Source: Gammaproteobacteria bacterium
GTDB lineage: Bacteria; Pseudomonadota; Gammaproteobacteria; Burkholderiales; Gallionellaceae
Direction: 5' to 3'
Assembly: GCA_018819205.1 (NCBI GenBank)
Contig: JAHJQE010000013.1
Coordinates: forward strand, 1 to 35,408
DNA length: 35,408 bases
Shown: piece by piece, positions 27,423-30,969 of the stretch
Layout: each line of letters begins with the position of its first letter
Position numbering within the stretch: the stretch's first letter is position 1
Program-made: the position numbers and the translations under genes
Notes under the pieces: generated by a model
Told to the model about the DNA's origin: nothing
What the model saw: the letters and a program-made list of their open reading frames with translations, nothing else
Databases searched by the model: none

Positions 27423-29273
27423 ATGCTTGAATGGAAAGACGGCCAGCCTTTCTCCGCTCGTTTCAGCGACGTGTACTTCTCCACCGAATCCGGTGTTGAG
27501 GAGAAGCGGCATGTATTTCTGCGAGGCAACGACCTGGCTCAGCGTTTTGCAGCACTGAATCCGGGTGAGAGCTTTTGCATAGGTGAAACAGGCTTCGGTA
27601 CCGGGCTGAACTTTCTGTGTGCCTGGCAGTTGTTCGAGCAGACCGCCCCGCCCGGAACCAGTCTGGATTTTTTCAGTACCGAAAAATTCCCCATCAATGA
27701 TGACGAGTTGCGCGCTTCGTTAGCCATGTGGCCTGAACTTGCTGTGCAGGCCGATGCACTGCGATCTTGCTGGCGCCATCGCGTTCCGGGATGGAACCGC
27801 TGGCATTTCGCTAGCGGACGTATCCGTCTGACGCTGGCGCTGGAAGATGTGATGCAGTCTTTGCCGCAGTTAAGGTCGGGCAGTGTAGATGCATGGTTCC
27901 TCGACGGCTTCTCGCCGGCGAAGAATCCCGAGATGTGGAGCGACGAAGTGCTGGCTGCTATTACACACGCCTCGCATCAGGGAACGACGCTGGCCACTTA
28001 CACCAGCGCAGGCTGGGTGAGACGCAGCCTGCAGGCTGCCGGGTTCGAAGTGCAAAGAATCCCGGGCTATGGTCGCAAGTGGGAGATGGTGCGCGGCAGC
28101 ATCCCCGTCGTGCGATCTCCTGCCGCGCGAATCGCACCGCCGCGACGCGCGCTCGTCATCGGCGGCGGACTCGCCGGTTGTGCAGCGGCGCATGCGATGG
28201 CACAACGCGGTATCCAGGTCGCGCTGATCGAGAGCGCTTCACAACTCGCCAGCGCAGCCTCCGGCAATCCGCGCGGCATCCTGCATGCGCGCTTCGGTGC
28301 GGGCATGAATGTGCTGCATCGTTTCGTGCTGGCAGCCTATGGACATGCGCTGGCGTTGCTCGACGAAGTGTTGCCGGTGGATGGTGTGTATCGTGCCGAA
28401 TGCGGACTACTGCAACTGGCTGCCACCGAGGCCGAAGCAAGACGCATCGCCAAACTGGCCACGCAGGAATGGCCGCCGCACTTGTTGCAAACCGTGGACG
28501 CTGCGCAGGCCTCGGCACTGGCAGGTTTGCCAATGACGCATGGTGGTCTGTGGTTTCCCGCTGGTGGCTGGGTGGTGCCACCGCAAGTCTGCACCAGACT
28601 GGTTAAGCATCCGAACATCACGCTGAGTCTGGATAGCGAGGTCACTTTACTGGAGCGGACTGCAAGCGGCTGGCGTGCGCGTGGCGATAGCTTCGCCATC
28701 GAGGCGGAGCAAGTCGTGGTGTGCTCAGCGCATCAGGCGAGGCGGCTGGCGCAGTTTGCCGCCTTCCCCTTGCAGCCGGTGCGCGGACAGATCAGCGTGC
28801 TCGCCGCAACGGAGACGAGCGGCAAGTTGCATGCCGTGCTGTGTGCCGAAGGTTATTGCGCGCCTGCGGTGGATGGGGAGCATGTGGCAGGTGCGACTTC
28901 TTCGTTCGATGATGATGCGACGGATGTCCGCGATGCCGACCATGCAGAGAATCTGGTCAGGATAGCCACACATATGCCCACGCTGCGGCAGGCCTTGGGC
29001 GATGCGTCGCCTTTGAGCGGGCGCGCCGGCGTGCGTTGTTCCGTGCCGGGTGCGACACCTGTGATCGGCGAGGTGGAACAGGGGCTGTATTGCAGTCTGG
29101 CGCATGGCACGCGCGGCTTGCTTACGGCCGGCATCGCGGCGGAGGTCATCGCATCCGCGATGTGCGGGCAAATGCCGCCTTTGCCGGCAGATATCCTGAA
29201 TGCGTTGGCGCCATTGCCAAGGATGGGAGGCAGCGGTAGTGTAGTGACACCTGACTCGACGGGGAAGCGATAA
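27423..29273 (+). CDS. mnmC: Bifunctional tRNA mnm5s2U biosynthesis protein MnmC
   Basis: 616 residues with both MnmC parts. The N-terminal methyltransferase (about 1-230) shows DVYFSTESGVEEKRHVFL, IGETGFGTGLNFLCAW and VDAWFLDGFSPAKNPEMW. The C-terminal FAD-dependent oxidoreductase (about 245-600) has ALVIGGGLAGCAAAHA and SGNPRGILHARF. MnmC converts cmnm5(s2)U34 to nm5 and then mnm5(s2)U34 at the tRNA wobble base. The start at 27423 matches the family N-terminus (LEWKDGQPFS) but has no obvious ribosome site. The TAA stop shares its last base with the ATG of the next gene. Confidence 0.95.
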   Translation: MLEWKDGQPFSARFSDVYFSTESGVEEKRHVFLRGNDLAQRFAALNPGESFCIGETGFGTGLNFLCAWQLFEQTAPPGTSLDFFSTEKFPINDDELRASLAMWPELAVQADALRSCWRHRVPGWNRWHFASGRIRLTLALEDVMQSLPQLRSGSVDAWFLDGFSPAKNPEMWSDEVLAAITHASHQGTTLATYTSAGWVRRSLQAAGFEVQRIPGYGRKWEMVRGSIPVVRSPAARIAPPRRALVIGGGLAGCAAAHAMAQRGIQVALIESASQLASAASGNPRGILHARFGAGMNVLHRFVLAAYGHALALLDEVLPVDGVYRAECGLLQLAATEAEARRIAKLATQEWPPHLLQTVDAAQASALAGLPMTHGGLWFPAGGWVVPPQVCTRLVKHPNITLSLDSEVTLLERTASGWRARGDSFAIEAEQVVVCSAHQARRLAQFAAFPLQPVRGQISVLAATETSGKLHAVLCAEGYCAPAVDGEHVAGATSSFDDDATDVRDADHAENLVRIATHMPTLRQALGDASPLSGRAGVRCSVPGATPVIGEVEQGLYCSLAHGTRGLLTAGIAAEVIASAMCGQMPPLPADILNALAPLPRMGGSGSVVTPDSTGKR

Positions 29274-30006: not shown

Positions 30007-30969
30007 ATGAAAAAGAACCCGACACCCGAATACCCCGAGATCCGTCCCGGCCAGTCCATCGAACTGCTGAAGGCGCTGCACATCCTGACGCGCGACGGCA
30101 AGATGAACCAGGACTCGCGCCGCAAACTGAAGCAGGTGTACCACCTGTATCAGTTCATCGAGCCGCTGTTGCAGGAAGTGAAGGACGAGCGCGGTGCCGT
30201 GACGCTGGTCGATCACGGCGCAGGCAAGTCCTATCTGGGCTTCATCCTGTACGACTTGTTCTTCAAGGCAATAGAACATCAACATGAATCGTCACGAGCG
30301 GTTGAAGTGCAAGGCGCACGGAGCACAGCGAACGAGTCATACCTTGAAGGTAGGCGAGGGAGCGAGCACCGCGCAACGCAGCAATTCGACCGCGCAGTAG
30401 ATTCATCGCATATCTATGGCATCGAGACACGCGAAGAGCTGGTGACCCACTCACGCGATCTGGCGCAGCACCTCGATTTCGGGGGTATGTCCTTCCTCAA
30501 CTTGTCGGTGGCGGATTCCATCACCTCGGACAAGCTGCCCGCCCAAGTAGATGTGGTGACTGCGCTGCATGCCTGCAACACGGCGACTGACGACGCGATC
30601 AGGTTCGCACTGGCCAAGCAGGCCAGGCACATCGTACTGGTGCCGTGCTGTCAGGCCGAGGTCGCTGCGGTGTTGCGCAAGAACAAGGGCGCGGCATTGA
30701 AGAACACGCTGACCGAACTGTGGCGGCATCCCATCCACACGCGCGAGTTCGGCAGCCACGCCACCAATGTGCTGCGCTGCCTGCAACTGGAAGCACACGG
30801 TTATCAAGTGACGGTGACTGAACTGGTGGGCTGGGAACATTCGATGAAGAACGAACTCATCATCGCCAGTTACAAGGACCTGCCGCGTCAGAAGGCGGCA
30901 CAAAGATTGCAAGAGATGCTGGAACTGCTCGGACTCGAAGAACTGAGCGCAAGATTCTTTACGGAGTGA
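30007..30969 (+). CDS. SAM-dependent methyltransferase (METTL25/Methyltransf_32-like) interrupted in frame by a palindromic element
   Basis: 320 residues. The SAM-binding loop is VDHGAGKSYLGFILYDLF (about 68-85); YGIETREELV, VVTALHACNTATDDAI and VLVPCCQAEVA are later family motifs. Between LFFKA and SHIYGIE lie roughly 40 residues rich in Arg, Glu and Ser with no counterpart that I can recall in homologues. They are encoded by a 123-bp imperfect palindrome (30284-30406) that keeps the frame open. The insertion falls between the first and second Rossmann strands, in a loop where it could be tolerated. The target of methylation is unknown. First gene of the hemoglobin-cyclase operon. Confidence 0.85.
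   Translation: MKKNPTPEYPEIRPGQSIELLKALHILTRDGKMNQDSRRKLKQVYHLYQFIEPLLQEVKDERGAVTLVDHGAGKSYLGFILYDLFFKAIEHQHESSRAVEVQGARSTANESYLEGRRGSEHRATQQFDRAVDSSHIYGIETREELVTHSRDLAQHLDFGGMSFLNLSVADSITSDKLPAQVDVVTALHACNTATDDAIRFALAKQARHIVLVPCCQAEVAAVLRKNKGAALKNTLTELWRHPIHTREFGSHATNVLRCLQLEAHGYQVTVTELVGWEHSMKNELIIASYKDLPRQKAAQRLQEMLELLGLEELSARFFTE
30284..30406. repeat. Palindromic repeat element inserted in frame in a coding gene
   Basis: A 123-bp imperfect palindrome: outer ends ATGAATC (30284-30290) and GATTCAT (30400-30406), further paired segments GCGGTTGAA against TTCGACCGC, and a perfect core TACCTT-G-AAGGTA (30340-30352) exactly at the centre. It contains the GGAGCGAGCACCGCGCAACG type of sequence seen in bacterial REP/extragenic palindromes. 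Its length (123, a multiple of three) and open frame leave the host gene readable. No second copy is seen in this window. Confidence 0.7.

Follow-up and report, generated by a model that had tools for sequence, protein, structure and literature searches.

A dispersed palindromic repeat lies in frame within a methyltransferase gene of a Gallionellaceae bacterium, in a loop that holds two other repeats in relatives

The methyltransferase gene and its insert

The window (the whole stretch of DNA that was analysed, 35,408 nucleotides) lies on contig C38 of its own genome (G000), which has 2.15 Mb in 103 contigs. The host belongs to Gallionellaceae, a family that NCBI, to judge from its entry for Sideroxydans, assigns to Nitrosomonadales. 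A class I SAM-dependent methyltransferase gene was identified in it (Table 1), with an open reading frame uninterrupted over all 320 residues, insert included. The gene was present as a single copy in the genome (threshold E <= 1e-20). An MnmC-like gene, named by eye, was observed two open reading frames upstream (27423-29273).

Table 1. Features of the methyltransferase gene and its insert (window positions)
Feature	Position	Strand	Basis
Class I SAM-dependent methyltransferase gene, 320 aa, holding the insert	30007..30969	+	ORF; Pfam Methyltransf_32 (PF13679), E 1.8e-48
Glycine-rich loop with the first core strand (LVDHGAG, residues 67-73)	30205..30225	+	translation; AF2 strand 66-70
Full covariance-model match to palindromic family A	30270..30419	+	model R1, 148 bits, E 2.1e-38 in own genome; the copy is among the 26 training rows of R1
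In-frame insertion relative to insert-free orthologues, 123 bp, residues 91-131	30277..30399	+	span comparison; homologue matches
Perfect palindromic core TACCTTGAAGGTA, hairpin tip	30340..30352	.	sequence; within consensus helix 8, 99.3% of cells paired

The methyltransferase gave no sequence match in PDB at E <= 0.01 and none in NCBIfam, while Foldseek with its model returned generic methyltransferase folds, with TMq of 0.27-0.43 among the matches listed. The AF2 model (30 sequences, mean pLDDT 83.1, pTM 0.80) contained a strand at 66-70, a helix at 77-111 and a strand at 135-140, and confidence was high in the core. The LVDHGAG loop, presumed to bind SAM as in class I methyltransferases generally, directly precedes the helix extended by the insert. 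Since the modelled helix runs from 77 to 111 and residues 114-128 have pLDDT below 50, the insert (91-131) is predicted to prolong helix A at moderate confidence and then to be disordered. The insert, itself modelled at low confidence, connects helix A with the second core strand (strand 2). In class I methyltransferases generally, this connection is found on the sheet face opposite the SAM pocket.

From GAGKS to IETR the window protein spans 72 aa, compared with 31 aa in matched insert-free relatives of the genus, therefore the gain is 41 codons, or 123 bp. The preliminary description had located a 123-bp in-frame insert at 30284-30406. Its length and frame held, but the best placement is 7 bases further left, and is ambiguous by a few codons because GATT at the right end of the element is similar to GAT TCA in the gene itself. 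The same stretch, 30284-30406, had been described as an imperfect palindrome with a perfect core at its exact centre; the ends ATGAATC/GATTCAT and the core were found as described, but the core is centred at 30346 and the stretch at 30345, one base off. No ungapped inverted repeat of 8 bases or more was listed within 30270-30420, and the arms of the palindrome are imperfect. Folding as RNA had been suggested as a check and agreed with a hairpin: 30274-30416 reached -48.1 kcal/mol against -37.45 +/- 3.67 in dinucleotide shuffles (z -2.9), and 0 of 200 shuffles were equally good. The window copy makes 37 of the 39 base pairs of the consensus hairpin of family A, the repeat described below. The rightmost part of the family A match, beyond roughly position 30400, probably belongs to the original gene, and no clean 4-bp target duplication was observed at the window copy.

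The insert was absent from nearly all relatives, which have the short loop that had been expected. With the window protein as query, most homologues of the genus matched only at about 1-90 and 132-320, and 79 of 80 named homologues, other genera included, had a span of 30-37 aa (the remaining one, L130, was unmatched). With an insert-free query, the gene was present in 137 of 158 genomes of the family. Five of these (G034, G036, G161, G174 and G184) were left out since the contig ends near or before the insertion site; among the 132 assessable Gallionellaceae genomes the site was empty in 127 and the loop held an insert in five. Smaller differences were also present. The methyltransferase of G191 has 10 additional residues located elsewhere in the protein, and eight rows have 4 additional residues, five of which were read (G103, G116, G117, G146 and G129), each with the loop itself slightly longer. 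Across the order the gene was found in 189 of 399 genomes, and among the matches listed only that of G000 was split at the insertion site, in a survey judged by split matches alone. The MAG contigs of G036 (L073) and G184 (L074) end or begin exactly at the insertion site, as assemblies do at repeats, and these breaks may conceal further inserts.

Family A, a hairpin repeat dispersed through the genus

The stretch is one copy of a dispersed repeat. It matched a second place in its own genome at 79% over nearly the full length, and model R1, built from 26 copies and used with 90 candidates scored per genome, gave 7 matches in G000. Matches existed in 33 of the 34 genomes of the genus, at least 256 in all, so the further copies predicted for the host and its relatives were found. 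A DNA search with the element gave a match in 48 of 100 genomes (its own included), some of them outside Gallionellaceae. Thus both observations that had been named as evidence against an inserted repeat failed to appear: the same 40 residues did not recur across distant genera, and the palindrome was not confined to one copy.

Family A is a single hairpin of 120-150 nt. In an alignment of 73 distinct rows, 94.0% of cells were paired, compared with 28-47% in slid controls, and two-sided changes occurred in 33 of 39 base pairs, whereas shuffles averaged 24.0 and slid controls gave 11-20. The outermost consensus helix was paired in 92.6% of cells. The outer arms diverge strongly among copies and are mostly complementary within each copy (alignment A3), while the inner core is near-invariant, with conserved mismatches. 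On the gene-sense strand the stems contain 172 G-U against 48 A-C, giving a hint of an RNA role on that strand, in an alignment of related copies fitted to a model that favours G-U. Short, with terminal inverted repeats and without a transposase gene, family A is MITE-like.

Rfam gave one match only, which lay on the opposite strand beyond the element and scored far below its gathering threshold, so identity with a curated Rfam family was rejected. Phage origin was rejected too, since no phage record matches family A, while one plasmid record carries a partial copy (NZ_CP133084.1, 67469-67554, 80% over 86 bases; plasmid of Nitrosomonas sp. sh817, predicted to be conjugative). In a Formivibrio MAG, a family A copy (L114, 1295-1445) stops some 55 bp short of the methyltransferase match.

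The ORF context was inspected at 33 family A loci and then at 40 more, and by a crude ORF test the majority of copies were intergenic. Ten candidate ORFs from the first 33 loci were compared with Pfam. Only COQ7 of G012 had the element within a domain; four had it ahead of the conserved domain, where it is probably upstream of the true start, and five matched no family. For the second set, ORFs that span the element were assessed only by eye. COQ7 is a second in-frame insertion of family A, with PF03232 spanning the element. Its insert of 147 bp consists of a 143-bp element and one of two copies of CTTG, a 4-bp target duplication, and was missing in 27 of the 27 other genus genomes with a match. 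The methyltransferase and COQ7 copies have identical orientation and frame. Of the 70 copies tested (from 75 rows, after exclusion of 5 with a missing anchor or insufficient length), 23 had no stop codon in that frame, and 36, 38 and 46 had none in the reverse-strand frames. Because the reverse-strand frames are open more often, stop-freeness alone leaves the common coding orientation unexplained, and two cases are few.

Two further repeats in the same loop, and mobilisation

The five loop inserts belong to three kinds of repeat, with net gains of 123 bp for A (G000), 87 bp for B (G020, G016 and G193) and 42 bp for C (G035). One and the same GAT codon follows the A insert and the B insert of G020, and the others lie within a few codons. 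Repeat B gave 70 matches in G020, 95 in G016 and 59 in G193, counts which include both strands of one palindrome, and 0 in G000 and G035. Repeat C is a GTAG-type REP starting GTAGGAGCGGCTTCAGCCGCGA; with two mismatches allowed, 67 sites were found in G035, 13 in G020, 12 in G016, 5 in G193 and 0 in G000. A tree of 30 methyltransferase genes, with the loop removed, required four gains, in which 9 of the 27 inner branches are open and the starred branches by themselves force three changes. G000 was sister to the insert-free G032 (98/89), and G193 to the insert-free G194 (94/84). Between G020 and G016 the B insert was identical at 83 of 87 positions, and the flanks at 254 and 265 of 300.

Other genes carry these repeats as well. 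For B, 20 of the best-scoring loci, a non-random sample, were read, and six of them (five genes) showed Pfam families at or flanking the insert: NAD-dependent DNA ligase (in two genomes), a P-type ATPase, a U32 peptidase (for which the placement relative to the insert lacks the position of the second DUF3656 stretch), a DUF3418 helicase-like protein and a 2-oxoacid dehydrogenase E2. Within the ligase gene, B lies at the same place in opposite orientation (L214 735-819 in G020, L215 751-835 in G016); the two copies are identical at 65 of 85 positions and the flanks at 281 and 271 of 300 (94% and 90%). This reversal may be an inversion, a replacement or a repeated insertion. For C, at least 4 sites in 20 regions of G035 looked in frame, in genes resembling MutL, MnmC, a RecB-like nuclease and uracil-DNA glycosylase by eye. 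In the MnmC-like gene (L237, 694-715) the REP is in frame within a linker.

For the mobilisation of family A, one subtype is informative. The GGAAACGCTGA subtype includes palindromes of 143, 206 and 272 bp with identical ends in G056 (L286-L290). Five of these elements were read: two have exact 4-bp direct repeats (CTAT, TTAG), one has TTAG with an extra base, and two agree at 3 of 4 positions. A sixth element of the subtype, L042, has CTTA on both sides. Each of the lengths 143, 206 and 272 bp becomes a multiple of three when 4 bp are added, and paired pattern hits suggest a 173-bp copy, which fits, and a 93-bp copy, which does not, so the divisibility is a mere hint. Across the whole family a strict test for target duplication, which found 1 of 69 where 0.36 was expected (P 0.31), was negative and did not support a general 4-bp duplication. 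A laxer test was positive, with 7 of 69 against 1.3, 0 of 1000 permutations as high and no excess at 3 or 5 bp; of these seven, the one at the window copy seems accidental, and two come from near-copies with identical four bases.

Six genomes were searched for PF01609, and seven matches came from three of these. In G056 a transposase remnant is followed by the end GGAAACACTGAACAA, nearly the same as the end of the GGAAACGCTGA subtype, and G012 has one apparently intact copy whose ends are related but distinct, with CTAA outside both. These transposases are presumably of the IS5 type. The analysis revealed no complete autonomous element bearing family A ends, and the ends of the window's subtype differ from those of the GGAAACGCTGA subtype. 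A RAYT-type Y1 transposase (Y1_Tnp) was present in 10 of 18 genomes, with 4 matches in G000. It was not found in the A-bearing G004, G006, G015, G024, G026 and G056 or in the C-bearing G035, genomes of which some are incomplete; mobilisation of family A by RAYT was rejected, as no Y1_Tnp was found in several copy-bearing genomes.

Interpretation and comparison with known repeats

The insert is very probably the result of a chance in-frame insertion of a dispersed, non-autonomous repeat into a tolerant loop, where it has been kept near neutral. One copy of the Gallionellaceae palindrome would have landed by chance. Its length is a multiple of three, and the orientation and frame taken contain no stop codon, so the protein would have acquired 41 residues, presumably translated, in the loop that joins helix A to strand 2. 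The loop would be tolerant, since its length varies in any case and the general fold places it across the sheet from the SAM pocket. Selection would discard other outcomes and retain the present insert as near neutral, and B and C would survive in the same loop because of the same tolerance filter. Mobilisation would be in trans, and for one subtype the 4-bp duplication and terminal repeats point to an IS5-type transposase.

An ordinary lineage-specific expansion of the loop by 41 residues, with a coincidental palindrome, is hardly conceivable: the span does vary naturally among the named homologues, but the dispersed copies in the host's own genome, seen both in the 79% match and in the 7 model places, contradict it. 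The gene could also be a dying pseudogene, still open by chance after an inactivating insertion, as 41 extra residues could impair the enzyme and this is the sole copy found in the genome. That is very improbable, since Nei-Gojobori dN/dS between the window gene and five insert-free relatives was 0.048-0.077, an average over the periods before and after insertion, like the 0.032-0.112 among insert-free pairs. In addition, the B-bearing genes of G020 and G016 have diverged to a dS of 0.415 with the insert, yet their dN/dS is 0.087, an argument which presumes one common insertion event. The methyltransferase gene remains under purifying selection.

Two other explanations concern the clustering itself. 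The insert might be adaptive, its mRNA hairpin regulating the gene or its peptide altering function, with the repeated insertion reflecting selection. Four gains of three repeat kinds in one loop would agree with this, as would the pairs kept by the window hairpin within coding sequence, a G-U bias compatible with a sense-strand RNA role, and a B insert more alike than its flanks in G020 and G016. Even so it is improbable, because B and C are in frame in several unrelated genes, as expected from a tolerance filter, the inserts are different sequences, B and C being unmatched in G000, and 127 of 132 genomes have no insert in the loop. The loop DNA might instead be a sequence-specific target of the mobilising enzymes, so that target choice and not tolerance causes the cluster. 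The shared GAT codon of A and G020's B, and the one site of B in the DNA ligase gene in opposite orientations, are in its favour. But the B of G193 and the C insert sit a few codons away, repeats with different ends would require a common target, and the flanks of other B copies have no evident shared target by eye, which makes target choice unlikely.

Chance insertion with tolerance is thus preferred, and the loop seems to be a place where small mobile DNA can land and be tolerated. A wider hypothesis is possible but doubtful: that the loop of this housekeeping methyltransferase is a natural insertion hotspot for three palindromic kinds of mobile DNA in Gallionellaceae, and that family A, as a MITE with RNA-like structure, has subtypes that exchange terminal arms, and perhaps transposase partners, around a fixed core, with lengths tending to suit in-frame insertion. 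The site is a natural experiment, because all three repeats hit one enzyme loop and empty sister genes are at hand. It can be used to separate protein tolerance from target choice by the element, and, with a close relative of the enzyme that lacks the insert for comparison, one can measure how an inserted hairpin affects translation and activity. Palindromic repeats that colonise genes in frame are best known from the obligate intracellular Rickettsia; at least three kinds do so in free-living iron-oxidising bacteria as well.

The in-frame palindromic element that had been proposed in a betaproteobacterial gene is borne out by copies in 33 of 34 genus genomes, empty loops in 127 of 132 genomes and the second case in COQ7. 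Thauera, too, is a betaproteobacterium. The preliminary description went too far in regarding such elements as known mainly from Rickettsia, because passages of a 2013 survey (PMC3733652) describe REPs within ORFs of several other genera, Thauera included, and those of a review (PMC2229807) describe ERIC and Correia elements fused within genes.

According to the same passages of the review, RPEs are palindromes of 105-146 bp with predicted long stem-loops, both intergenic and fused in frame in conserved genes, and 19 Rickettsia reading frames contain them (PMC2229807). Family A likewise is a dispersed multi-copy palindrome, in frame in conserved genes and absent from orthologues. Going by that description, the two are alike in the palindromic stem-loop and in having intergenic and in-frame sites, and differ in clade and in number, with two supported in-frame cases for family A against 19 frames in Rickettsia. 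ERIC and Correia elements, as described there, are alike as palindromic MITEs with open frames fused in genes, in other genera.

The intragenic GTAG/CGTC REPs in the passages of PMC3733652 are similar in their insertion into conserved ORFs, and family C begins like a GTAG repeat, while family A differs as a single hairpin of 120-150 nt instead of a tagged unit of 20-40 bp. For the shared site, the survey offers a precedent in different REPs at about the same recB site in two Xanthomonas species (PMC3733652), compared with three repeat kinds at one site here. One subtype of family A resembles IS5-type MITEs by its GGAAACGCTGA ends and 4-bp YTAR-like duplications, while the window's subtype differs by other ends and no clear duplication. 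The literature searched, with partial coverage, contained no report of repeats inside Gallionellaceae genes. The convergence of three families on one loop is unusual. The phenomenon is of a known kind, in which, as far as the searches go, the family, the clade and the three repeat kinds in one loop are new.
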